Below, piece by piece: positions 48,340 to 63,920 of a DNA stretch of 64,000 nt. The notes beneath the pieces are model-generated. The model saw only the letters and a list, made by a program, of their open reading frames with translations, was not told the origin of the DNA and did not search any database. Origin of the DNA: Pseudolabrys sp. GTDB taxonomy: Bacteria; Pseudomonadota; Alphaproteobacteria; Rhizobiales; Xanthobacteraceae. Within the stretch, counting starts at the first letter, position 1; the number at the start of each line of letters is the position of its first letter. Location of the stretch: the NCBI GenBank assembly GCA_022841665.1, contig JALHRB010000002.1, positions 1-64,000 on the forward strand, read 5' to 3'. The position numbers and the translations under genes were made by a program.

Positions 48340-48765
48340 TCACGGTGCCACGCACGGATTCTTGACCATGTAAGTTCGCTGGTCGCTCCATTTAATGGGA
48401 AAAGACTTCATCAGCGAGGCGAGCATTATGTCCGCCGGCTGCCGTCCACCGAGGATCGCCTCGACGATGTCCGGCGCCAGCAGGGTCAGCCGCAGTACAC
48501 GACCGACGTAGGACTCGTTGATCTTCTTGGCTACCGCGATTTCCCGGATCGTTGCGTAGGTGCCATCCTCCAGCATCTCCCGCCAGCGGAATGCCCGGGC
48601 GATGGCCTTGACCATGGCATTGTCGATATGGCGGCGGACGGGCGCCGTCGTCACAATTGTGCCGTCGGGAGCGAGGACGAGTTTCCGGCCACCGCGCCTG
48701 CGGATCGAAATCGGGATGAGCACGGTGACGGTTCGGCCATCGACGGTGGGATTGGGCTCGGTCAT
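48340..48765 (-). CDS. Recombinase-associated HTH-like protein
   Basis: 141 residues. The N-terminal half is strand-rich (TVTVLIPISIRRRGGRKLVL). The C-terminal half has a helix-turn-helix-like segment (TIREIAVAKKINESYVGRVL, RLTLLAPDIVEAILGGRQP) resembling the ParB/KorB-type HTH. Its ATG overlaps the recombinase stop by one base (TAATG). It may act as directionality factor or repressor, but this is inference. Confidence 0.7.
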   Translation of the reverse strand: MTEPNPTVDGRTVTVLIPISIRRRGGRKLVLAPDGTIVTTAPVRRHIDNAMVKAIARAFRWREMLEDGTYATIREIAVAKKINESYVGRVLRLTLLAPDIVEAILGGRQPADIMLASLMKSFPIKWSDQRTYMVKNPCVAP

Positions 48766-50078
48766 TATGCCACCCTCCGGGGCTCTGGTTTGATGGTGCC
48801 CAGCTCTGTGACCAGATTGGTTAGTCCTTCGATCCGCAACCGGATGTCGGCACCGTCCGGGCTGACATCGACCCGCCCCACGAGCAATTGCACGATGCGG
48901 GCCTGCTCGGCGGGGAAGAGTTCATCCCAAAGCGGATCGAGCCGCTCCAGCGCGTCGCGCACGTCGGCCTCCGAGATGTCGCCCATCGACTTCGCCGCGC
49001 GCCATGTGCGCACGATAATCTCCGGCGCCCGCAGCAAGCCGCGCAACTGGTCGACGACCGCGCTCTCGATCTCGGCTGCAGGGACACGGCGAACGGTGCA
49101 CGAATCGGCATCACGCTTCAGCACATCGGTCGAGACATAATAGCGGTAGAGCTTGCCGCCCTTGCGGGTGTGTGCCGGGGTCATCGCTCTGCCGGTCGGC
49201 CCGAATATCAGACCCTTGAGCAAGGCCGGCGTCTGGGCCCGGGTATGTGCAGCGCGTTTGCGCGGGCTTTCGCGGAGGACGGCGTGCACGCGATCCCAGA
49301 GGGTGCGATCGATGATCGCCTTGTGCTCGCCGGGATAGGCCGTGCCCTTGTGCACGGCATCGCCGACATAGACCCGGTTGTTGAGCAGCTTGTAAACATA
49401 GCCCTTGTCGACCAGCTTACCCTGCTTGCCGGTAACACCTTCTGTCCTGAGCGCGTGCACCAGCGCGGTTGCGGAGCCGATCTTGATGAACCGCTCGAAG
49501 ATCATCCGAACGGTCGCCGCCTCGGCCTTGTTCACGACCAGCTTGCGGTCCCGGACGTCGTAGCCGAGCGGAACGAAGCCGCCCATCCACATGCCCTTCT
49601 TTCGCGAGGCGGCGAACTTGTCGCGGATGCGCTCGCCGATCACCTCGCGTTCGAACTGCGCGAAAGAGAGCAGGATATTGAGCGTCAGCCTGCCCATCGA
49701 GGTGGTCGTGTTGAACGACTGCGTCACGCTGACGAAGGTGACGCTGTTTCGGTCTAACACCTCGACGAGCTTGGCAAAGTCCATCAGCGCGCGGCTGAGG
49801 CGATCGATCTTGTAAACCACGACCACGTCGACCCGGTGGGCTTCGATGTCGGCAAGCAGGCGCTGCAGCGCCGGACGTTCGAGCGTTGCGCCGGAAATCC
49901 CGCCGTCATCATAGCGGTCGGGCACGAGCACCCAGCCCTCGGGCTTCTGGCTTGCAATGTAGGCTTCGCAGGCCTCACGTTGGGCGTCGAGCGAGTTGAA
50001 CTCCTGCTCCAGTCCCTCCTCGGAGGACTTGCGCGTGTACACCGCGCAGCGGAGCTTGCGGACGACCGGCTTCTTCAT
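48765..50078 (-). CDS. Large serine recombinase
   Basis: 437 residues. The resolvase domain (residues about 8-155) has the catalytic serine, probably S18, in CAVYTRKSSEEGLEQEFNSL and the motif YKIDRLSRALMDFAKLVEVL. A recombinase domain (about 175-275) and a zinc-ribbon-like region (about 295-345) follow, but with few cysteines. It can mediate site-specific integration or excision. Its start overlaps the DUF2924 stop by four bases. Confidence 0.93.
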   Translation of the reverse strand: MKKPVVRKLRCAVYTRKSSEEGLEQEFNSLDAQREACEAYIASQKPEGWVLVPDRYDDGGISGATLERPALQRLLADIEAHRVDVVVVYKIDRLSRALMDFAKLVEVLDRNSVTFVSVTQSFNTTTSMGRLTLNILLSFAQFEREVIGERIRDKFAASRKKGMWMGGFVPLGYDVRDRKLVVNKAEAATVRMIFERFIKIGSATALVHALRTEGVTGKQGKLVDKGYVYKLLNNRVYVGDAVHKGTAYPGEHKAIIDRTLWDRVHAVLRESPRKRAAHTRAQTPALLKGLIFGPTGRAMTPAHTRKGGKLYRYYVSTDVLKRDADSCTVRRVPAAEIESAVVDQLRGLLRAPEIIVRTWRAAKSMGDISEADVRDALERLDPLWDELFPAEQARIVQLLVGRVDVSPDGADIRLRIEGLTNLVTELGTIKPEPRRVA

Positions 50079-54184: not shown

Positions 54185-54477
54185 CCACATCAGCTGCAGT
54201 GACCGCGCTGCGCAAGCGCCATATCTGGCTCGATGCGCTGCCGGACACCATTGCCATTCCGGCACTCGAAGCACGACAGCGGCCGGCCACCGTCAAGGCG
54301 ATCGAGGATGCCACGCTCGACGACATCGCATTCGCGATGCTGGTGACGGAGGCGGAATTCAACGCCGTTGGCGACAAGCTGCATGCGCTGCGCAAGCTCT
54401 ACAGCCTCGCTCGCCAAGCCGGCGCGCTCGGTGCCGATCGCGCGGTCGGGGCGATTTCCGATGGGGGAGGCCGCTAA
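54181..54477 (+). CDS. Hypothetical phage-module protein
   Basis: 98 residues, helical (LEARQRPATVKAIEDATLDD, IAFAMLVTEAEFNAVGDKLH, ALRKLYSLARQAG). No family is recognised. Its TAA overlaps the next ATG by one base, indicating coupling to the ATPase gene. Confidence 0.75.
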   Translation: MTTSAAVTALRKRHIWLDALPDTIAIPALEARQRPATVKAIEDATLDDIAFAMLVTEAEFNAVGDKLHALRKLYSLARQAGALGADRAVGAISDGGGR

Positions 54478-55310
54478 TGGCGCTGCGCATCATCACGGCC
54501 GATCAGCGGCTCGCCGAGGCCCACACCAAGACCACGATGGCGATCTTCGGCCCCTCCGGTGTCGGCAAGACCTCGCTGCTCAAGAGCCTCCCGCCTGCGG
54601 AGACGCTGTGCATCGATCTCGAAGCCGGCATGAAGTCGGTCCAGGATTGGCCCGGCGACAGCATCCCCGTGCGCAGCTTCGCCGATGCTCTCGACGTCGC
54701 TTGCCTGGTCGGTGGCGTCGATCCGGCGGCGGATGAGAAGACCTTCTTCTGCGAAAGCCACTACCGGCACCTCAGAGACACCTATCCCGACCTCGTCCGT
54801 ATGATCGCGTGCAAGCGCATCATCTTCGTGGACTCCATCACCGACCTCACGCGCCTGGCTATGGCCTGGGCGAAGACGCGGCCGGAAGCGCAGTCGGAAC
54901 GGACCGGCAAGCCCGACACGCGTGGTGCGTACGGCCTGCTGGCGCGCGAAACCATCGGGCTCCTGAAGCACCTGCAACACGTGCCGGGCCGCACCGTGAT
55001 CTTCGTCGGGATCCTGGACCGCGTCACCGACGAGTTCAACCGCGTCACCTGGCAGCCGCAGATGGAGGGCGGCAAGGCCGCCCGCGAGCTCCCCGGCATC
55101 GTCGACCAGGTGATCTCCATGAGCCGGTTCGCGCCCGATGGCGACGCCTGGCGTCACGAACCCGATCGCGGCGAGGTGCGCCGCCTCGTCTGCCAGTCGG
55201 CCAATCCCTTCGGCCTGCCGGGCAAGGATCGCTCCGGCCGCCTCGACCTCACCGAGCCGCCCGACCTCGGCGCGCTGCTCCGCAAGATCAACCAGACCAG
55301 CAGAGGATGA
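54477..55310 (+). CDS. RecA-like ATPase, Sak4-type phage recombinase
   Basis: 277 residues. Walker A is GPSGVGKT at residues 25-32 and a Walker B-like strand is IIFVDSITDLTRLA. It resembles phage Sak4/AAA_24 proteins, which work with an ssDNA-binding protein and an exonuclease in annealing-type recombination. The next gene is a plausible SSB-like partner and a PD-(D/E)XK nuclease gene lies in the same run, which supports the call. Confidence 0.82.
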   Translation: MALRIITADQRLAEAHTKTTMAIFGPSGVGKTSLLKSLPPAETLCIDLEAGMKSVQDWPGDSIPVRSFADALDVACLVGGVDPAADEKTFFCESHYRHLRDTYPDLVRMIACKRIIFVDSITDLTRLAMAWAKTRPEAQSERTGKPDTRGAYGLLARETIGLLKHLQHVPGRTVIFVGILDRVTDEFNRVTWQPQMEGGKAARELPGIVDQVISMSRFAPDGDAWRHEPDRGEVRRLVCQSANPFGLPGKDRSGRLDLTEPPDLGALLRKINQTSRG

Positions 55311-56053
55311 CCACCATGTTCGACATGAACGATGCCGAGCCGCAGAAGACCGGCGAACTCATTCCCGACGGCACCTTCGCCAAGGTGACCATGATCGTCC
55401 GCCCGGGCGGAATCGATGGCCAGAGCGAGATCGACCAGGCGCTGCTCAAGGCGCCCAAGGACCCGTCGAGCGACGTGCGGATGCTCGACTGCGAGTTCAC
55501 CGTGGCGGAGGGACCGCATGCCAAGCGCAAGTTCTGGCAGATGTTCACCGTCCAGGGCGGCAAGGTCGACGAGAACGGCGTCTCGATCGCCTGGAAGATT
55601 TCGAAGAGCAGCTTCCGCGCCATGATCGACAGCGCGCTCGGCCTCGACTCGCAGGACATGAGCGAGGCGGCGAAGCAGAAACGCGTCCTGCGCGGACTCG
55701 CCGATCTCTCGGGCATCACCTTCGTCGCCAAGATCAGGATCGAGGCAAGCGAGGACGCCCGCTATGGCGATCAGAACCGCCTCGATCGCGTGGTGTTGCC
55801 AGGCGAGAAAGAATGGAAGCTCGTCATGGACGGCAAGGACGTGCCGGCAAGCCCAAGCCGCTCTCGTGGGACCGGCGGCAAAGCCGCTGCCGCGCAACCC
55901 GCCTGGAATCAGACAACGGGTCCGGGCGGACAGCCGGCTGCTGCGCCATCTCGATCACCGCAGACGTCCGGCGCGCCCGCCTGGTCGCAACCGTCATCCG
56001 GCACTGGCGCACCGGCAGCAAAGCCGCCGGGTCCGGCTTGGCTCAACGGTTGA
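55307..56053 (+). CDS. Probable single-stranded-DNA-binding protein of the module
   Basis: 248 residues from an ATG at 55307 that overlaps the ATPase stop. The N-terminal 185 residues contain strand-rich stretches (GTFAKVTMIVRPGGIDGQSE, KRKFWQMFTVQGGKVDENG). The C-terminal 60 residues are a disordered Q/P/A/S-rich tail (RSPQTSGAPAWSQPSSGTGA), a layout typical of SSB proteins. Assignment rests on context and architecture, not on recognised motifs. The open frame continues upstream only as shadow. Confidence 0.6.
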   Translation: MTTMFDMNDAEPQKTGELIPDGTFAKVTMIVRPGGIDGQSEIDQALLKAPKDPSSDVRMLDCEFTVAEGPHAKRKFWQMFTVQGGKVDENGVSIAWKISKSSFRAMIDSALGLDSQDMSEAAKQKRVLRGLADLSGITFVAKIRIEASEDARYGDQNRLDRVVLPGEKEWKLVMDGKDVPASPSRSRGTGGKAAAAQPAWNQTTGPGGQPAAAPSRSPQTSGAPAWSQPSSGTGAPAAKPPGPAWLNG

Positions 56054-56056
56054 GCC

Positions 56057-56290
56057 ATGACCGACGACGAGTGGCAGGCGCACGTCACGCATGAAGCGGC
56101 CAAGGCGATCGGCGAATGGCTCGAAGGAAGAGGACGGCTTCACCAGCCAATCCGCTCTTTGACCATGCCCGAGATCGAGGCCATGGCGCAGAACGCCATC
56201 AGCCGCTTCATCGTGCTGGCGTCGCAGCGGATCGCGGAAGCACCCGACGAGCCAGGGTCGCAGAAGCTCTCGATGCTGCTGTTGGGTTGA
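56057..56290 (+). CDS. Hypothetical small phage-module protein
   Basis: 77 residues, mostly helical (DEWQAHVTHEAAKAIGEWLE and TMPEIEAMAQNAISRFIVLA). It starts four bases after the preceding stop, and its TGA overlaps the TTG start of the next gene. No family is recognised. Confidence 0.7.
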   Translation: MTDDEWQAHVTHEAAKAIGEWLEGRGRLHQPIRSLTMPEIEAMAQNAISRFIVLASQRIAEAPDEPGSQKLSMLLLG

Positions 56291-56631
56291 GAGCCTGCAC
56301 CCTCTGCAGCCGCGAAGCTCGCGGCTTCTACTACACCCACCAGCTGCGCCCCGACCGCTATCCGACTTATCCCTTCTGCTCGCTGCGCTGCCTCAATGCC
56401 AGCGCCGCCATCGCCAAGAGGAACCACGGCGTGATCGACAAGACCGAACTGGAGATACAGGCGATCAAGGCAGCGCGGCGCAATTTTGCGGAGGTGCTGA
56501 CCGAGCTTGGACTGATGGCGCCGTTCCACGACCGAACTCCTGAAGAGATCGATCGGATCATCGAGGCCTGCATCGACGGCTTCCAGGAAGCTATGCGCCG
56601 CGAAACGCTCAACGACGACATTCCATTCTGA
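56287..56631 (+). CDS. DUF6511-like zinc-ribbon protein
   Basis: 114 residues from a TTG at 56287 that overlaps the previous stop. Four cysteines (C4-x2-C7 and C31-x3-C35, ACTLCSREARGFYY and YPFCSLRCLN) suggest a zinc site at the N-terminus, followed by a helical C-terminal part. It resembles DUF6511 proteins of rhizobial prophages. Function is unknown. The longer open frame overlaps the gene upstream and is not supported. Confidence 0.75.
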   Translation: MRACTLCSREARGFYYTHQLRPDRYPTYPFCSLRCLNASAAIAKRNHGVIDKTELEIQAIKAARRNFAEVLTELGLMAPFHDRTPEEIDRIIEACIDGFQEAMRRETLNDDIPF

Positions 56632-56639
56632 GGCCGGTC

Positions 56640-57425
56640 ATGGATATCGTCGACCTCAACCACGGCTCCGGATTCATTTACGGCCGCGCCCCCGCGCCGC
56701 CGCCGATCGGCGAGCGCATTGACGCCCTCGTTGACGGCGCGCTCATGGCAGAGCGTGCCGTCATGCCTGCGCGCGATTATCTTGGCGCGTCCCGCATCGG
56801 CGAACCGTGCGCACGCCGGCTCTGCTATGAGCTGATGCACGTGCCGGTCGATGACGGCGCCGATTTTTCCGGCCGCATGCTGCGCATTTTCGAAGCCGGC
56901 CATCGCTTCGAGGAAATGACCATCCGTTGGCTGCGGCTCGCCGGGTTCGATCTGCGCACGCACAACCGCGATCGCGAACAGTTCGGCTTCTCGGTCGCGG
57001 GCGGCCGCCTCCGCGGCCACATCGATGGCGTGATCGTCGGCGGCCCAGATGTCGGGATCGAGTATCCGGCCCTGTTCGAACACAAGGCGCTCAAGGCCTC
57101 CTCCTGGCAGGACGTCGTAAAGCGGGGCGTAAAGGCTTCAAAGCCGATCTACTGGGCGCAGGTCCAGGTCTACATGGCCTACCTCGCGGTCGAGAACACG
57201 CTGTTCGTCGCGCTCGACAAGGACACGCAGGCGCTCCGCTACGAACTCGTCTCCTTCGACCCACCGGCGGCGCAGGCGCTCTCGGACAAGGCGGTCGCCG
57301 TGATCCGCGCCGCCGCCGTTGGCGAGCTCCTGCCGCGCATCTCCGACGATGCCAGCTTCTTCATCTGCGCGTTCTGTCCGTATCGCATCCGCTGCCACGC
57401 GCTCGCACCGGGAGGCAATGCATGA
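56640..57425 (+). CDS. PD-(D/E)XK nuclease, Cas4/RecB-like, with Fe-S-type cysteines
   Basis: 261 residues. Candidate catalytic residues are D129 (GHIDGVIVGG), E147 and K149 (FEHKALKA) and Q174/Q176 (YWAQVQVYMA). Cysteines C57 and C62 near the N-terminus and three more at the C-terminus (FFICAFCPYRIRCHAL) match the cluster of Cas4/AddB-type nucleases. It may act as the exonuclease partner of the Sak4-like ATPase. No CRISPR array is present. Confidence 0.8.
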   Translation: MDIVDLNHGSGFIYGRAPAPPPIGERIDALVDGALMAERAVMPARDYLGASRIGEPCARRLCYELMHVPVDDGADFSGRMLRIFEAGHRFEEMTIRWLRLAGFDLRTHNRDREQFGFSVAGGRLRGHIDGVIVGGPDVGIEYPALFEHKALKASSWQDVVKRGVKASKPIYWAQVQVYMAYLAVENTLFVALDKDTQALRYELVSFDPPAAQALSDKAVAVIRAAAVGELLPRISDDASFFICAFCPYRIRCHALAPGGNA

Positions 57426-58726
57426 CCATCACCCTTTCCGAGAGCCAGCGCGCAGCGATCACCACGGTCAAGGACTGGTACGAGAACCGCACGAAGGAGC
57501 AGCAGGTCTGCCGCGTGTTTGGCTATGCCGGCGCCGGGAAGAGCACGATCGTCAAGTATGCGATCGAGGAACTAGGACTCTCGACGCCGGGAGCCGAGTC
57601 GAAGATCGGCGACGTGCTCTATGCGGCCTTCACTGGCAAGGCCGCGCTGGTCATGACGCGCAAAGGTACGCCAGCGTCCACCATCCATTCCCTCATCTAT
57701 CGTGTGTCGGAGGCGAGCCCGCAGGAGATCGAGAAACTCAAGCTCGAAGTCGCCGAGATACAAGCAAAACTGCCATCGCTCGGTGTCGCCGAACGCCTGT
57801 TCGAGGAGTCGCGGCTGCGCTCCCTCGAGTTGCGCCTGAAAGACGTGCATAAGCCGCGCTTCGTGCTCAATTCCGAGTCCGTCCTGCGCGATGCCAAGCT
57901 GCTCGTCCTCGACGAGGTGTCCATGGTCGGCGCGGAGATGGCGCGCGACCTCCTTGCCTTTGGCAAGCCGACCCTCGTGCTGGGCGATCCCGGCCAGTTG
58001 CCGCCGGTCAAGGGCGAGGGCGCCTTCGACACCGACAAGCCCGACGTGCTCTTGACCGAAGTGCACCGGCAGGCCGGCGACAGCGCCGTCATCCGTCTTG
58101 CGACCTGGGCGCGCGAGGGGAAACCAATTCCCTACGGCGAACACGACGAATTCGTGTGGAAGATGCGCCGGTCGGACGTGGACGCATCGGGCCTGCTGCG
58201 GGCCGGCCAGGTGATCTGCGGGCGCAATGCAACGCGCATGCAGCTCAACCTTGCCATGAAGCAGGCCGCAGGCTTTACCGCACCCTATCCGGCCGGGGCC
58301 GGCGAGAAACTGATCTGCCTGCGCAACCGCAACGACATCGGCCTGGTCAACGGCATGTTCGTCACCCTCGGCGAGATCGAGGAGGACGGCGACGAGATCG
58401 CCTTCAAGGCCGCGATCACCACCGAGGACGGACACAAGGTCGGGGGCGAGACCAACGGCAAGCGCGAGCGCTTCCGCATCTATCGCGGCCACTTCGACGA
58501 TCATCTCTCGCCCGATCCCGATCGGGACCGGCGCGACTATCATAAGAAGCGCACCCTGATCGAGTGCGTCTGGGGCTGGGCCATCACGTGTCACAAGTCG
58601 CAGGGCTCGCAGTTCGAAAACGTCGTGGTGTTCGACGACGGGCTCGGGCGCACGCCGCAGGACCGGGCGCGCTGGCTCTATACCGCCATCACCCGCGCCG
58701 AGCGCGGGCTCGTGCTGCTCGATTGA
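57422..58726 (+). CDS. RecD-like superfamily 1 DNA helicase
   Basis: 434 residues. Walker A is GYAGAGKST at residues 34-42, Walker B is LLVLDEVSMVGAEMARDLLA, motif III is LVLGDPGQLPPVKGEG, and the C-terminal UvrD_C_2 motif is ITCHKSQGSQFENVVVF. The final motif VI is YTAITRAERGLVLL. The ATG at 57422 overlaps the nuclease stop (ATGA). It probably serves phage DNA replication or recombination. Confidence 0.9.
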   Translation: MTITLSESQRAAITTVKDWYENRTKEQQVCRVFGYAGAGKSTIVKYAIEELGLSTPGAESKIGDVLYAAFTGKAALVMTRKGTPASTIHSLIYRVSEASPQEIEKLKLEVAEIQAKLPSLGVAERLFEESRLRSLELRLKDVHKPRFVLNSESVLRDAKLLVLDEVSMVGAEMARDLLAFGKPTLVLGDPGQLPPVKGEGAFDTDKPDVLLTEVHRQAGDSAVIRLATWAREGKPIPYGEHDEFVWKMRRSDVDASGLLRAGQVICGRNATRMQLNLAMKQAAGFTAPYPAGAGEKLICLRNRNDIGLVNGMFVTLGEIEEDGDEIAFKAAITTEDGHKVGGETNGKRERFRIYRGHFDDHLSPDPDRDRRDYHKKRTLIECVWGWAITCHKSQGSQFENVVVFDDGLGRTPQDRARWLYTAITRAERGLVLLD

Positions 58727-58733
58727 GGCGCCA

Positions 58734-61712
58734 ATGCTCGACCTCAACGACGCGCAACCTGTATGGCCGGTCGAGCGGTTTGACCTCGATGCCATCGTGT
58801 CGCGTCTGCGCGATAGTGCCGAGCAATGGGTTCCGCGGCTGTTCCCGAATGGCAGACGGGTCGGCGATGAATGGCGGCTTGCCAATATCCAGGGCGCCGC
58901 ACCGCGCAAGAACGGCTCTTGCGTGATCGCGCTTGCCGGCGAGCACGCTGGCGACTGGATTGACTTCGACGGTGGCCATGGCGGTGGACCGCTCAGCACA
59001 TTGGAGAATGCGACGGGCCTCAGCGGACGCGAGCTGTTCGCCTACGCGGCTGATTTGACAAATGCAGGCACGCAGCCGAGACGGTCCGCCGCCAAGCCCT
59101 CGTCCAAGCAGGCGGATCAGGCCCGCGAGATCGAACACATCCTGTCGAAGGCAGTGCCGATCGCGGGCACGCTGGGCGAGCGATATCTCGCTTCGCGTGG
59201 CCTACCGGCGTCCGACTGCTCCGACCTTCTGTTCCATCCCGACCTGACTCATTGGGAAAGCCGGCGTGGCTTTCCGGGCCTGGCAGCCGTGGTACGGGAT
59301 GTTGCCGGCAACCGCATCGCGCTCCACCGCACCTATCTCGCCGACGACGGCACCACCAAGGCGCCGGTCGATAACCCGCGCAAAATGCTGGCCTCGATCG
59401 CAGGCGGCGCCGTGCGTCTCGCCGATCTGACTGACGACCGTGTCATCGGTCTCGCCGAGGGCATCGAGACGGCGCTCTCGGTGATGACTGCCTGCGCGCG
59501 CCTGCCGGTCTGGGCAACGCTCTCGGCCTCCAACCTGGAACAGGTGGCTCTGCCCACCGAAGCGCGGAAGGTCGTCCTGCTTGCTGACCACGATCCCTCG
59601 GGCGCCGGCGCGCGCGCTGCCGAGACCGCTGCCGCCCGTCTGCACGCCGAGGGGCGGCGGGTCTTCATCGCCATTCCGCCAAGGGAGGGCGAGGATTTCA
59701 ATGACCTGCTGCTGCGCGACGGCGTCGATACCGTGCGCAGAATCGTTGAAGCCGCGGTCGAATGGGGCACCCACAGCAACGACGATCGCGTGATCCTCGC
59801 CATCGACAGCGGCACGCACAAGCCGATCGGCTTCGGGCAGTCGGATCGCCCCCGACCACAGTTGCGCGCCGATAACGGCGATCTGGCGCGCGCGGTGTCG
59901 CAGGCGTGGCAGATTCTACTCGCCGCCAATGATCCGCCCTGGATGTTCCGTGCCGCCGGATGCCCGACCTGGGTGGTGCGCGACGACGACGGCCTGCCCA
60001 TGGCGAAGCCCCTGACCGAGGACCGCCTGCGTCCGGTGCTCGCCCAACTCGTCGATTGGCGAAAGATTAATCGCAATGGCGAACTCGTCCCGGCCCATCC
60101 GCCCTTGCCGGTGATCAAGTCGATTCTGGCCACACCCGATCCGGCGCTTCCCGTCCTGACAGGCATTGTCACGACGCCCGTGTTTGGCCGAGAGGGCGAA
60201 CTCATCACCGAGCCCGGCTACCATCCGGCTGCGCGCCTGCTCTACGATCCGCCCAAGGGCTTCGTACTGCCACCGGTGCCGGCGAAGCCTACGCAATCCG
60301 ACATCGCCGTTGCGCGGTCTCTGCTGCTGGACGATCTCCTGGGAGATTTTCCGTTCATCGGCGAAGCCGAGCGCGCGCATGCGCTGGCGCTCCTTCTCGT
60401 CGGCTTCGTACGCGCCATGATCGATGGGCCGACCCCGCTACATCTGGTCGAGAAACCGACCCAAGGCACCGGTGCGACCCTGATGGTGGACGTGATGTCG
60501 GTCGTCGCGATCGGCTGCCGGGCGAGCGTCATGGTCGAAGGCAGCGACGACGAGGAATGGCGCAAGCGCCTGACCGCCAAACTGCGCCAGATCCCGTCCG
60601 TCGTCCTGATCGACAATCTGCGCCGGCCGCTCGACTCCTCGGCACTCGCTGCCGCGCTCACCGCGCCGTTCTGGGAAGACCGCATCCTTGGTGTCTCGGA
60701 AACGACGCGGCTGCCGATCCGCTGCATCTGGATCGCCACCGGCAACAATGCCGAGTTCTCGGGCGAGATGGCGCGCCGGCTTGTGCGCATCCGGCTCGAC
60801 GCCCGCGTCGACCAGCCCTGGCGCCGTAGCGGCTTCCGTCATCCCGATCTGGTGGGCTGGGTGCATGCCAATCGGGCAGACCTCGTCGCTGCTTGCCTGA
60901 CGCTATGCCGCGCCTGGATCGCGGCCGGCATGCCGCGCGGGGGCAAGCACATCGGCAGCTTTGAAGCCTGGGCTGCGGTTATCGGCGGCATGCTCGACGC
61001 GATCGGCGTGTCCGGATTCCTTGGCAACATCGACGAGATGCTCGACGCCTCCGACGGCGAAGGGGCGGTCTGGCGCGTGTTTGTCGGACAATGGTGGGAC
61101 CGCTTCGGTACAGCAGAGGTCGGCACCAGCGGGCTCTACGAGCTCGCCGTCAATTGCGAGCCGCCGCTTCCGCTCGGCACCGGCCGCGACCGTTCGCAGC
61201 GAATCCGGCTCGGCAAGGCGCTCGCGCGAATGCGCGACCGCGTGTTCGACATCGGCGGACTCAAAGCGCGCATCAGAGCCCTCGGGGTCTCCCATCAGGC
61301 CCGCCGCTGGCAACTCGCCCTCGAAGGGGAACGTGAAGAACGGTTTTCCGACTGCAGCCACGAACAAACAGGGGAACGTGGGGAACGTTTGCCGGACTCC
61401 TCCGAAGCAGAAAAAGGGGAATGTCAGGTGTCTGTCGACCAACGTTCCCCCCAACGTTCCCCGGCCTATCCCATTGATAATGAAGGCATCGGGGAACATG
61501 GGGAATGTGGGGAATGTTTTTCCGACCTCCGCGCGTGCGCGCGCGTACACAATAATAAAGAAGAGCAAACACATTCCCCACATTCCCCACATTCCCAAAA
61601 CGCCGACAATTCAGAGGCTTGTGCCGGGGAACATGGCGGGGAAGGTCGCCAAGCACGTTCCCCACATTCCCCGCTCGCCGATTCTCCCGATTGGCTGAAG
61701 GGGGTGCCGTAA
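58734..61712 (+). CDS. TOPRIM primase/helicase-type replication protein with repeat-encoded tail
   Basis: 992 residues. The N-terminal part resembles phage primases, with a TOPRIM domain at about residues 235-330 (VIGLAEGIETALSVMTACAR, KVVLLADHDPSGAGARAAET). The middle and C-terminal parts (about 510-760) resemble a helicase/ATPase domain, but its loop is KPTQGTGATL rather than a standard P-loop. The last 130 residues are low-complexity, with units such as GERGERL, GEHGECGE and HSPHSPHS. They are encoded by the GGGGAAYRTG array. Confidence 0.85.
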   Translation: MLDLNDAQPVWPVERFDLDAIVSRLRDSAEQWVPRLFPNGRRVGDEWRLANIQGAAPRKNGSCVIALAGEHAGDWIDFDGGHGGGPLSTLENATGLSGRELFAYAADLTNAGTQPRRSAAKPSSKQADQAREIEHILSKAVPIAGTLGERYLASRGLPASDCSDLLFHPDLTHWESRRGFPGLAAVVRDVAGNRIALHRTYLADDGTTKAPVDNPRKMLASIAGGAVRLADLTDDRVIGLAEGIETALSVMTACARLPVWATLSASNLEQVALPTEARKVVLLADHDPSGAGARAAETAAARLHAEGRRVFIAIPPREGEDFNDLLLRDGVDTVRRIVEAAVEWGTHSNDDRVILAIDSGTHKPIGFGQSDRPRPQLRADNGDLARAVSQAWQILLAANDPPWMFRAAGCPTWVVRDDDGLPMAKPLTEDRLRPVLAQLVDWRKINRNGELVPAHPPLPVIKSILATPDPALPVLTGIVTTPVFGREGELITEPGYHPAARLLYDPPKGFVLPPVPAKPTQSDIAVARSLLLDDLLGDFPFIGEAERAHALALLLVGFVRAMIDGPTPLHLVEKPTQGTGATLMVDVMSVVAIGCRASVMVEGSDDEEWRKRLTAKLRQIPSVVLIDNLRRPLDSSALAAALTAPFWEDRILGVSETTRLPIRCIWIATGNNAEFSGEMARRLVRIRLDARVDQPWRRSGFRHPDLVGWVHANRADLVAACLTLCRAWIAAGMPRGGKHIGSFEAWAAVIGGMLDAIGVSGFLGNIDEMLDASDGEGAVWRVFVGQWWDRFGTAEVGTSGLYELAVNCEPPLPLGTGRDRSQRIRLGKALARMRDRVFDIGGLKARIRALGVSHQARRWQLALEGEREERFSDCSHEQTGERGERLPDSSEAEKGECQVSVDQRSPQRSPAYPIDNEGIGEHGECGECFSDLRACARVHNNKEEQTHSPHSPHSQNADNSEACAGEHGGEGRQARSPHSPLADSPDWLKGVP
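61326..61672. repeat. Iteron-like array of GGGGAAYRTG, candidate replication origin
   Basis: About 15 copies in 350 bases. Direct copies start at 61326, 61371, 61380, 61416, 61491, 61500, 61509 and 61626. Inverted copies (CAYRTTCCCC or AACGTTCCCC) start at 61441, 61453, 61570, 61579, 61588 (partial), 61654 and 61663. An alternating GCGCGTGCGCGCGCGTAC and then an AT-rich AATAATAAAG segment sit at 61531-61563 between the main direct and inverted groups. Location inside a primase gene parallels known phage origins. Confidence 0.7.
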
Positions 61713-62073: not shown

Positions 62074-62270
62074 GGTGGGCACCCAAAGGATACGGCGGAG
62101 AGCGGCGCCCTCCCGATCAGGTCAAACGCGATGGCTGGCACGAGCACGGCATCCTGGTGGTGAGCGTGCATGATCAATCTCTCACCTGGCCGGAGCGTGA
62201 ACTGATCCGGCAGCTCGGAGGAAAACTTTACGGCAAACGCTCGACGAACAAGGAGGCGTACCATGGCTGA
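62070..62270 (+). CDS. Hypothetical small phage-module protein
   Basis: 66 residues with a basic N-terminus (MRWAPKGYGGERRPPDQVKR) and a helical C-terminus (LTWPERELIRQLGGKLYGKR). No family is recognised. It overlaps the gene before by four bases and the gene after by eight. Confidence 0.75.
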   Translation: MRWAPKGYGGERRPPDQVKRDGWHEHGILVVSVHDQSLTWPERELIRQLGGKLYGKRSTNKEAYHG

Positions 62271-62691
62271 TTGGACGCCGGCTTGCGTGGAAGCGCGGCT
62301 GCACGAAGCGGCGGACGTGATGGCGCGTCTGCCGGAGGTGCGCGTGCAGGGTTACTACTCGCTGTGGCCGAAGATGCTCGCCGAGTTCAGCGATTTGGTT
62401 GGCCAGGAACCTCAGCGCCTCAAGCGTCCTCCTCCGTCTCCCGATGCCATCACGCGGATGGAGGAGACACTGGGCTGGTTGCGGTGGCTTGAAGCCGAGG
62501 ATGCGAAGCTCGCCTGGGCGCGCGCCGAGCGCACCCCATGGAAAATGATCTGCTGGCGGTTCGGTATCGCTCGCGCCACCGCGCATCGGCGCTGGCAATA
62601 TGTGCTGAGCGTGATCACGTGGCGGCTCAACGGGCGGAGGGTGCCGGGGAAGCGGTCACGGCGATTCGTGGTCGAAAGAGCCAAGGCTTGA
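62263..62691 (+). CDS. DUF6362-family protein
   Basis: 142 residues. The body fits DUF6362 of rhizobial prophages: VEARLHEAADVMARLPEVRV, GLVYYSLWPKM-like YYSLWPKMLAEFSDLVG, and a C-terminal helix-turn-helix-like part (KMICWRFGIARATAHRRWQY). In related phages such genes lie just before the terminase. Here the mer operon begins instead. Confidence 0.8.
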   Translation: MADWTPACVEARLHEAADVMARLPEVRVQGYYSLWPKMLAEFSDLVGQEPQRLKRPPPSPDAITRMEETLGWLRWLEAEDAKLAWARAERTPWKMICWRFGIARATAHRRWQYVLSVITWRLNGRRVPGKRSRRFVVERAKA

Positions 62692-62695
62692 GATT

Positions 62696-63136
62696 CTATG
62701 CTTCAGCCGGCGGACGACGAACGTCGAGAACGTCAAGCACTGGGCATTCTGGTGCGGTAGTTCCAGTGCAACGCGCAACTGTCTTCGCCAGCAACCGCTC
62801 CAGCTTGCGAAGGTCAGCTATCTTGGCGCGAATCTCGTCGAGATGATGCGAAGCGATTTCGCGAACTTCCCGACATGAGGCTTTTGCGGGGCCGCCGAGC
62901 CGAATCAGCGCGCGGACCTGATCGAGAGAAAATCCCAACTCCCGCGACCGGCGGATAAAGGCCAGGATACGAAGGTGAGTGGCGTCATAGACGCGACGCC
63001 CACCGGCTGTGCGCGGCGGCGCCGGGAACATCTTGATCCGCTCGTAGTAGCGGATTGTCTCGATGTTCACGCCGGTAAGTTCCGACAAATTACCGATTGT
63101 TAACGCTTCCGCTCGCGCATCTGTGATCGAGCCCAT
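62696..63136 (-). CDS. merR: Mercury-responsive MerR regulator
   Basis: 146 residues. The N-terminal HTH (TIGNLSELTGVNIETIRYYE) is followed by a dimerisation helix. Three cysteines at 88, 123 and 131 (ASCREVREI, ARCTGTTAPECPV) correspond to the Hg(II) ligands of Tn501 MerR, with C82-C117 spacing kept. It is divergent from merT. Its stop faces the DUF6362 stop with only four bases between. Confidence 0.93.
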   Translation of the reverse strand: MGSITDARAEALTIGNLSELTGVNIETIRYYERIKMFPAPPRTAGGRRVYDATHLRILAFIRRSRELGFSLDQVRALIRLGGPAKASCREVREIASHHLDEIRAKIADLRKLERLLAKTVARCTGTTAPECPVLDVLDVRRPPAEA

Positions 63137-63147
63137 GGTGACCGGCC

Positions 63148-63178
63148 TTGCTCCTGTAGTGACTACAGGAAGTATACC
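63148..63178 (+). promoter_or_regulatory. MerR-controlled mer operator/promoter
   Basis: TTGCTC at 63148-63153 and TATACC at 63173-63178, separated by 19 bases, the over-long spacer typical of MerR promoters. A dyad CCTGTAG-N3-CTACAGG (63153-63169) lies within it. It drives merT-merP. Confidence 0.9.
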
Positions 63179-63204
63179 GCCCGCGATCCAGAGAGGACAA
63201 CGAA

Positions 63205-63618
63205 ATGAGCGAAACGCGCAGCGCCATGGGTTCTATTGCATTGAGCGATCGCCCTGCCAACGCCTCGCCCGGCAAGGGTCAAAAGCTGGCGGCGGCGGGC
63301 GGGATCATCGGTGCGCTCGCCGCATCGTCGTGCTGCATTTTGCCGGTCGTTCTCTTTAGCCTTGGTGTCAGTGGCGCATGGATTGGAAACTTCACGCAGC
63401 TTGCGCCCTATCAGCCGTATTTCATTGCGGCCACGCTCGCTTTCATCGGCACCGGCTATTGGTTGGTCTATCGCTCGTCAAAGGTCGCCTGTGCAGAGGG
63501 TGAGGCTTGCGCACGGCCATTGCCTAACAGATTCGTTAAGATCGCGCTCATTGCGGCGACCGTCATTGTTCTTGCCGCCTGGGCCTTCGACTATGTCGCC
63601 CCCTACGTGCTGTCCTAA
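63205..63618 (+). CDS. merT: Mercuric ion transport protein MerT
   Basis: 137 residues with three transmembrane helices. A cysteine pair in helix 1 (SSCCILPVVLFSLGVSGAW) and a second pair in the loop (VACAEGEACARPL) are the Hg(II) ligands. The N-terminal 30 residues are a polar extension (MSETRSAMGSIALSDRPANA) longer than in Tn501 MerT. The ATG follows AGAGGACAACGAA. Confidence 0.93.
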   Translation: MSETRSAMGSIALSDRPANASPGKGQKLAAAGGIIGALAASSCCILPVVLFSLGVSGAWIGNFTQLAPYQPYFIAATLAFIGTGYWLVYRSSKVACAEGEACARPLPNRFVKIALIAATVIVLAAWAFDYVAPYVLS

Positions 63619-63635
63619 CCAATGGAGCAAATCAA

Positions 63636-63920
63636 ATGATGAAGTACGTCATCCCTGTTACGCTCTCGCTCGGCATCATCGGTCCTTCGTCTGCTCGTGC
63701 AGCGGAAAAAACGGTGACGCTCGCGGTGCAGAACATGTACTGCGCCGCGTGCCCGCACACCGTTAAATCGAGCCTGCAATCCGTGCCGGGTGTCAAAGCG
63801 GTTTCGGTGTCATTCAAAAACAAGACTGCCATCGTGACCTTCGACGACGCAAAGACCAACGTGAAGGCGCTGACGACAGCGACGACGAACGCCGGCTATC
63901 CGTCCTCTCCGAAAGGCTGA
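63636..63920 (+). CDS. merP: Periplasmic mercury-binding protein MerP
   Basis: 94 residues. A signal peptide (VIPVTLSLGIIGPSSARAA) is followed by the HMA fold with the metal-binding motif NMYCAACPHTVKSSLQSVPG. It passes Hg(II) to MerT. It starts 17 bases after merT. Confidence 0.95.
   Translation: MMKYVIPVTLSLGIIGPSSARAAEKTVTLAVQNMYCAACPHTVKSSLQSVPGVKAVSVSFKNKTAIVTFDDAKTNVKALTTATTNAGYPSSPKG

Follow-up and report, generated by a model that had tools for sequence, protein, structure and literature searches.

Replication origins placed within or directly beside the genes for the proteins that read them have been described in several systems. Specifically, the P4 alpha protein is reported to bind the repeats of its origin via a winged helix (PMC4234260). 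The C-terminal domain of SaPI Rep is described as recognizing iterons located directly downstream of the helicase gene, and that of SCC Cch2 as binding a putative origin in vitro (PMC7581432). In lambda and in Stx phages, the iterons are reported to reside in the gene of the initiator O itself and to lengthen the encoded protein (PMC7466680). The repABC plasmids, which are alphaproteobacterial replicons, are reported to harbor oriV inside the initiator gene repC, which is described as having an A+T-rich region and no iterons (PMC3155836). Here, we focus on 64,000 nucleotides (nt) of Pseudolabrys sp. DNA (contig JALHRB010000002.1, positions 1 to 64,000; hereafter, the window), in which a prophage gene encoding a primase-helicase carries, in its 3' end, an array of short direct and inverted repeats. 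We argue, with a confidence that is high but short of certainty, that the repeats are iterons, most likely the replication origin of the prophage, and that they are read by the product of the gene that contains them. The best reading, by analogy, is that this system would work like the origins of P4 alpha, SaPI Rep, lambda O, and repC.

The likeness to each of these systems is partial. Like the window's protein, P4 alpha is a Toprim_3 primase fused to an ATPase, and the P4 repeats are likewise short and present in both orientations, with two pairs 9 base pairs (bp) apart. In the P4 record, the cis-required region, crr, adjoins the 3' end of the alpha gene; of the 16 annotated type 1 repeats, 11 are GGTGAACA, one letter off the unit GGTGAACGT of one relative of the window's locus (L013). 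By eye, and as a lead only, the P4 wing TKQGIQTNLTL resembles the GTYQGAQRWRL of relatives that would read GGTGAA. However, the P4 repeats lie outside the alpha gene whereas those of the window lie within the open reading frame (ORF), and the window's protein lacks the Pox_D5, D5_N, and DUF5906 matches found in alpha; the Pfam overlap between the two is restricted to Toprim_3 and a weak second Toprim model. Membership in the P4 alpha family was considered and rejected, as sequence comparison was negative and the hhalign probabilities are 0.2 and 0.1 for the helicase and the winged helix. The structure 1KA8, which we take to be that of the P4 domain, is not among the best 50 structure matches of the isolated winged helix.

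In SaPI Rep and Cch2, the origin is downstream of the gene, whereas the window's ORF spans the array and ends in a conserved peptide; the window additionally possesses a central alternating purine-pyrimidine block and a 9-bp unit with a putative letter-residue code. Lambda O is not a primase-helicase, and it loads DnaB through P. Compared to lambda O, the window's array sits at the 3' end of the gene, its units are shorter, and they occur in both orientations. Held against the lambda arrangement, the window's iterons are inside the coding sequence, and covariation points to the same protein as their binder. N15 and PY54 carry the origin inside a P4-alpha-like repA gene. Among the titles and opening abstract lines of the top matches in the open-access literature, we found no description of the array or of the letter-residue code presented here.

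A repeat array inside a primase-helicase gene

The gene, its functional parts, and the elements of the array are arranged as follows.

58734..61712, + strand: primase-helicase ORF, 992 amino acids (DUF7146, Toprim_3, AAA+/SF3-like ATPase, winged helix, array-encoded tail)
61017..61319, + strand: C-terminal winged helix, putative reader of the array (residues 762-862; AlphaFold, covariation)
61188..61238, + strand: recognition helix, residues 819-835 (covariation, AlphaFold)
61287..61307, + strand: wing tip, residues 852-858, VSHQARR in the window (covariation, AlphaFold)
61326..61424, + strand: set A direct units GGGGAAYRT, starting at 61326, 61371, 61380, and 61416
61442..61462, - strand: set A inverted units, starting at 61442 and 61454
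61491..61517, + strand: set B, three tandem direct units, starting at 61491, 61500, and 61509
61530..61551, unstranded: alternating purine/pyrimidine block of 22 nt between the direct and inverted set B units
61546..61575, unstranded: 30-mer with the lowest GC content in the tail (27%); candidate site of melting, without conservation among relatives
61571..61597, - strand: set B, three tandem inverted units (61571 and 61580 exact, 61589 imperfect)
61626..61646, + strand: set C direct unit and near-copy GGGGAAGGT, starting at 61626 and 61638
61655..61672, - strand: set C, two tandem inverted units, starting at 61655 and 61664
61680..61709, + strand: last peptide of the ORF, DSPDWLKGVP, reached only by translation through the array

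The original prediction, made from the letters alone, had placed about 15 copies of GGGGAAYRTG at 61326-61672. The array is real and is located exactly there: 14 exact copies of the 9-bp unit GGGGAAYRT (8 on the + strand, 6 on the - strand) fall within these coordinates, and none occurs in the remainder of the window. The 10-mer originally given is exact only 9 times in the window, each time inside the array. Dinucleotide shuffles of the array segment (n=2000) contain a mean of 0.03 and a maximum of 2 copies of GGGGAAYRT. In the 3.85 Mb assembly to which the window belongs, a tandem pair of units with at most one mismatch matches six times, all six in the array, and the reversed control pattern matches nowhere.

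The proposed order, mainly direct copies on the left and inverted copies on the right, gives way to three successive sets (A, B, and C), each consisting of direct units followed by inverted ones. Set B is the clearest: three tandem direct units, the 22-nt alternating run, and three tandem inverted units, the last of them imperfect, with arms (61492-61521 and 61567-61596) that are 90% complementary. The alternating run is placed at 61530-61551. The stretch originally called AT-rich, 61531-61563, has 54.5% GC, and the AT-rich piece is instead 61546-61575.

Relatives of the gene reveal which of these features are kept. Reference genomes supplied 41 related loci, 35 of which include the C-terminal region, with 33 distinct tails besides the window's; scans for homologs took the best 80 of 225, 187, 120, 129, and 105 matches. 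The main table holds 91 distinct loci, after 10 had been dropped for a missing motif or a short tail and with the window's own copies (L042-L049, L132) excluded. Units were collected with a finder that accepts only those with G as the second and fourth letters and T as the ninth, and, in 57 representatives (90% identity and same unit), were sought only inside the ORF. The tail alignment displays a common plan, with only two central direct units in some loci (L006, L018). The unit itself differs: relatives carry GGGGAACGT, TGTGAACCT, CGTGAGGGT, GGGGGACCT, GGTGAATGT, and others. Direct and inverted copies in the same phage match each other, and both orientations are present, inside the 3' end of the primase gene, in all 91 distinct loci. 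Inverted copies differ from the direct consensus of their own locus by a mean of 0.60 letters (n=345) and from those of other loci by 2.63, the first figure being biased low because copies were collected within two mismatches of the locus consensus. Consensus units occur as 485 exact copies in the 20,586 nt of the 57 tails versus 6 in the other 639,944 nt. An alternating run of at least 12 nt exists in 56 of 57 tails versus 24 of 399 gene-body blocks, and direct and inverted units flank the alternating block in 53 of the 57. The comparison of homologous arrays that the original prediction had suggested as a check therefore yields a conserved layout with divergent letters that match across orientations within each locus. 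A unit that varies between phages yet is common to both orientations within each argues for selection at the DNA level.

The array also dictates the protein. Homologous tails read GER/RSP, CEP/GSQ, REG/PSR, GGP/GPP, or GTW/DPQ, so the repetitive peptides change along with the DNA unit, as originally proposed, and the protein tail is not kept among homologs since the direct and inverted copies of the DNA unit change together. No locus among the 91 combines the same protein tail with dissimilar DNA, the pattern that the original prediction had named as evidence for selection on the protein. GGG makes up 10 of the 13 glycine codons of the window's tail versus 7 of 77 in the gene body. Of 148 distinct loci that have an intact winged-helix end and sequence beyond it, 143 keep an open tail of at least 250 nt (among the remaining loci, the ORF extends to the end of the contig in 9, the winged-helix end is cut or diverged in 11, and 198 are duplicates). 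The motif W[LW]x(1,2)[VLIA] ends the protein, within its last 12 amino acids, in 52 of 57 representatives and in 33 of 37 further tails described below. The conserved last peptide is PDWLKEV- or PDWLRELDP-like, of the PDWL[KR] type. DNA-level selection on the tail, which the original prediction had held probably to outweigh protein-level selection, is supported by the homologous tails, with one qualification: the last residues are conserved as protein, so both levels are under selection. The frame is presumably kept open for the last peptide, with the intervening linker dictated by the origin.

Unit letters track residues of the same primase

For the covariation analysis, 91 distinct primases (90 from the table plus the window's; the short protein L027 was dropped) were used, and 679 variable columns of the 57 representatives were compared with each unit letter. 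For every letter tested, the best column lies in the C-terminal winged helix. At letter 3, column 855 accounts for 94% of the unit entropy, followed by columns 854, 852, and 853 and then by a value of 27%: G accompanies Gln, Lys, or Asn855 in 35 of 35 cases and T accompanies Gly or Arg855 in 22 of 22. At letter 5, column 856 accounts for 91% (runner-up, 28%), with A beside Ala856 (48/48), G beside Thr, Ser, or Val (8/8), and T beside Leu (1/1). Letter 6 follows column 820 (73%; runner-up, 30%), with A beside Arg or Lys820 (47/48) and G beside Gln, His, or Asn (8/8). Letter 7 follows column 824 (77%; runner-up, 31%), with C beside Thr824 (43/44), T beside Ile (9/9), and G beside Val (3/4). The association of letter 8 with column 828 is weaker (45%; runner-up, 38%), and the best columns for letter 1 are 855 and 854 (41% and 39%). 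In AlphaFold models, residues 820, 824, and 828 reside in the recognition helix (819-835) and residues 854-855 at the wing tip. Their spacing of four puts 820, 824, and 828 on one helix face, in the same order as letters 6, 7, and 8.

Shared ancestry was addressed with a tree of residues 12-760 (91 rows), on which letters 3, 5, 6, 7, and 8 changed at least 18, 9, 8, 13, and 12 times. Supported independent pairs on this N-terminal tree agree in 16 of 16 cases for residue 855 and letter 3, 9 of 9 for 856 and letter 5, 7-8 of 8 for 820 and letter 6, 8-9 of 9 for 824 and letter 7, and 8-9 of 10 for 828 and letter 8; for all five contacts, no supported pair runs in the opposite direction. With the rules frozen, 84 of 84 scored letters in 17 held-out loci, several of them close to training loci, were predicted correctly, and one letter was unscored.

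Letter 7 offers a view of the unit in transition. Among rows 95-96% identical to the window (including L050-L054 and L002), those with Ile824 carry mixtures of C and T at this letter (8/7 in the window, 9/8 in L050, 8/8 in L052, and 4/8 in L054), whereas rows with Thr824 carry almost exclusively C (15/1 in L051 and 14/1 in L002, and 17/1 in L057, likewise near the window), L053 being the exception with 10 C and 4 T. Distant Ile824 rows (L006, L078, L088, L095, L098, L129, L063, and L026) mostly carry T. These mixtures are consistent with a substitution that accepts either letter, after which the units are gradually converted.

The protein, the prophage, and distant relatives

The primase ORF matches Pfam DUF7146 (E 2.3e-29) and Toprim_3 (E 1.2e-21) as well as PHROG phage primase families, and the array follows its C-terminal winged helix and precedes its conserved last peptide. 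In Foldseek searches with the helicase and winged helix together, the best matches are primase-helicases, including NrS-1, SaPI PriRep1, and SaPI5, and the ATPase part adopts a fold like that of superfamily 3 (SF3)/AAA+ proteins. AlphaFold models of the winged helix have block confidence values (pLDDT) mostly of 80-95. Sequence search of the PDB gave no useful match, and structure search with the isolated winged helix gave generic folds only, none with E <0.001.

Neighboring genes place the primase in a phage replication module:

48765..50078, - strand: large serine integrase of the prophage (Pfam, PHROG)
54477..57425, + strand: replication/recombination module, with Sak4-like AAA_24, phrog_2300, DUF6511, and Cas4-like exonuclease genes (Pfam, PHROG)
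57422..58726, + strand: Dda-like superfamily 1 (SF1) helicase gene, directly 5' of the primase gene (Pfam, PHROG)
62263..62691, + strand: DUF6362 protein, helix-turn-helix-like, considered below as a rival binder (Pfam)

The element is a serine-integrase prophage with mercury-resistance cargo. Genes for a MerR-like regulator, a MerT-like protein, MerP, and MerA are found at 62696-63920 of the window and at 82-1599 of locus L239, separating the replication module of the prophage from its packaging module. MerP and MerA score above the NCBI curated cut-offs, and the MerR-like and MerT-like proteins below them. At L239, terminase, portal, protease, major head, and minor tail genes lie 3' of the mercury genes. 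The DUF6511 protein (56116-56631) terminates in NDDIPF, an ending that, we presume, resembles the C-terminal tip of single-strand binding proteins. One Pseudolabrys contig (JARYIJ010000001.1) carries two full primase copies and one partial copy (L001, L002, and L040) within ~100 kb; the L002 and L040 tails are identical.

Arrays also exist well outside the clade of the window. Three of eight distant relatives, L247 (Azospirillum), L245 (Streptomyces), and L243 (archaeal virus), carry arrays just 3' of the stop codon, that of L247 comprising three direct and then three inverted units; the other five (L240, L241, L242, L244, and L246) have no convincing array. Relatives of L247 and L245 (L248, L249, L251, and L252) possess downstream arrays as well, and the array of L250 is visible by eye and was missed by the 1-mismatch finder. 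In the Streptomyces-type loci L245, L251, and L252, a CACACACACAT block lies between the sets. At the array centers of L248 and L250, an inverted ACTGTCA...TGACAGT motif replaces the CG/CA block. The position inside the ORF is the mark of the window's clade. The originally noted resemblance to phage origins within replication genes gains from both the covariation with recognition helix and wing and these 3' arrays.

Weighing the readings

A further set of 170 loci also bears on the letter-residue rules. Removal of 1 locus without a winged-helix hit, 11 without a motif, 14 with short tails, and 84 with tails already present left 60 loci with 37 distinct tails, 25 of which are <90% identical to any training winged helix. 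For these 37 tails, the frozen rule, a nearest-neighbor guess with the contacts masked, and a constant guess performed as follows.

Letter 3: rule 33 right, 3 wrong, 1 unscored; nearest neighbor 32 right; constant 19 right
Letter 5: rule 34 right, 3 wrong, 0 unscored; nearest neighbor 32 right; constant 28 right
Letter 6: rule 32 right, 2 wrong, 3 unscored; nearest neighbor 23 right; constant 17 right
Letter 7: rule 25 right, 10 wrong, 2 unscored; nearest neighbor 29 right; constant 24 right
Letter 8: rule 28 right, 1 wrong, 8 unscored; nearest neighbor 26 right; constant 4 right

By these counts, the rule is clearly better than relatedness at letter 6 and worse at letter 7. At letters 3 and 5, the rule missed L304, L343, and L389, where arrays are present and the unit finder failed; inspected by eye, L343 agrees with the rule at letters 3, 5, and 7.

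Several observations weigh against an origin read by this primase, or against the code as formulated. Relatedness alone nearly equals the rule at letters 3 and 5, and the residue classes were chosen after inspection of the data. By eye, L304 and L389 obey the rule for letter 3 but violate that for letter 5, with Ser856 beside A, and naive transfer of the rules to the distant L248 is unsuccessful. The 10 wrong calls at letter 7 all come from loci 68-92% identical to L033; in such loci, the phase of G-run units is ambiguous, and Val824 occurs mostly without G. Letters 5-8 of L033 are doubtful because the finder may have chosen a shifted phase in such units. On a tree of the winged helix itself, with the contacts left out, each contact retains 4-5 supported independent pairs, none opposite; some pairs show no difference (2.9 of 4 are in the same direction for 824 and letter 7, and 3.0 of 5 for 828 and letter 8), and no single contact is significant alone. 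Given so few pairs, part of the count on the N-terminal tree possibly reflects module swapping. Exchange of whole cassettes may explain part of that count, but not the column-specific signal. In 5 of the 148 loci (L067, L086, L089, L216, and L307), a stop codon within the array ends the ORF. A 30-nt stretch of at most 30% GC exists in 14 of 57 representative tails versus 2 of 399 gene-body blocks, and a conserved AT-rich element is absent across the 57; AT-richness is not a general feature of the tails. Finally, the Walker A motif, KPTQGTGA at 60453-60476 (residues 574-581), carries Ala at the position of the usual Lys throughout the aligned relatives (53 of 53), and a Lys seven residues upstream is invariant. 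Distant L240, L243, and L246 have the upstream Lys and lack the usual one; in L241, L242, L244, L245, and L247, it is the usual Lys that is present and the upstream one that is missing. A Walker A motif without its usual lysine makes motor activity uncertain: the motor may be unusual, or unwinding may depend on the neighboring Dda-like helicase.

Other readings of the array must be considered. The same winged helix could use it as an operator, regulating its own, other replication, or late genes, with the origin elsewhere. Covariation supports reading as such and not replication in particular, and iteron initiators often autoregulate; nevertheless, an origin would better account for 14 units grouped into three sets at such a place, the 3' end of a gene, and the distant 3' arrays beside helicase genes and the P4 cis-required region are replication sites or are placed alike. 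We regard the operator as improbable, although it is the strongest competitor. Could a different protein of the module read the array, with the primase merely co-diverging? The DUF6362 protein is the candidate here: a homolog was found in 30 of 58 loci, in flanks of limited length, and over these 30 loci its best columns reach 0.67 and 0.63 for letters 6 and 8, the latter exceeding the 0.57 of primase residue 828, a further point for the other side of the ledger. At letters 3, 5, and 7, however, DUF6362 reaches 0.21, 0.22, and 0.27 versus 0.88, 0.91, and 0.72 for the primase contacts, which also reach 0.92 at letter 6. The best columns of the Dda helicase, Cas4, and AAA_24 range over 0.10-0.38 across the five letters, and the TSCPD gene, with 9 homologs only, was dropped from the test. 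Of these proteins, DUF6362 alone competes with the primase contacts, at letter 8 and in part at letter 6, and we consider a binder other than the primase very unlikely.

A hairpin, acting as an RNA element or as a single-stranded origin, would account for direct sets that precede inverted ones and for the complementary arms of set B, and a stem-loop 3' of the replication gene is reported to serve as the origin of pRN1 (PMC4234260). Yet, in the 48 of 57 loci with a block of three direct and three inverted units, would-be pairing partners differ by 0.840 mismatches and non-partners by 0.885 (permutation p 0.16); partners are closer in 12 loci, farther in 7, and equal in 29. The hairpin or RNA reading is therefore unsupported by partner-specific similarity within loci, no compensatory signal is significant, and hairpins do not account for covariation with protein residues. 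We judge it quite unlikely on its own, and a hairpin may form in addition to protein binding. That the tail is simply a repetitive protein under protein-level selection, or a functionless by-product of repeat slippage, draws on the long open tails and on the conserved last peptide. Inverted copies, however, follow direct ones as reverse complements, the glycine codons belong to the array and not to the gene, and slippage cannot make inverted copies track residue 855; this reading is hardly tenable.

We return to the array as an origin read by its own primase. From the computed array, layout, covariation, fold, and prophage setting, we infer physical binding, DNA melting, origin activity, and an order of events. 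Specifically, the winged helix (residues 762-862) would bind the 9-bp units, with recognition-helix residues 820, 824, and 828 facing letters 6, 7, and 8, and wing-tip residues 854-856 facing letters 3 and 5. With several monomers on units of both orientations around the alternating block at the center, the AAA+ ring would be seated, the DNA opened, and the Toprim domain enabled to prime. The ORF would usually be kept open through the array so that the conserved C-terminal peptide follows. In divergence, a contact residue would change first, and the units would follow one by one.

A more far-reaching proposal, which we make tentatively and would not yet favor, treats winged helix and array as a single recognition cassette, self-contained and quick to diverge. 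With the origin translated as the tail of the initiator and that tail ending in a conserved peptide, initiator and origin would be inherited together. New specificities could arise via residue changes tolerated by mixed arrays and subsequent unit-by-unit conversion, and competition between related phages in one cell is a possible driver. The conserved alternating CG/CA block would be the fixed, specificity-free part, perhaps an element for melting, Z-DNA formation, or primer start.

What is known of initiator-origin specificity usually concerns single pairs. The loci assembled here offer more than 100 natural pairs (91 + 17 + 37 loci), each within one gene, and such a set allows the specificity of an initiator to be deduced from sequence one letter at a time and traced as it shifts. 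If the array is an origin read by its own primase, alphaproteobacterial temperate phages would gain a recognizable origin, and the odd repetitive tails of their primases (GERGER, CEPCEP, REGREG) would be explained as translated origins. If the cassette proposal also holds, these phages would possess many mutually private origin types, together with a readable amino acid-to-base code for origin specificity.

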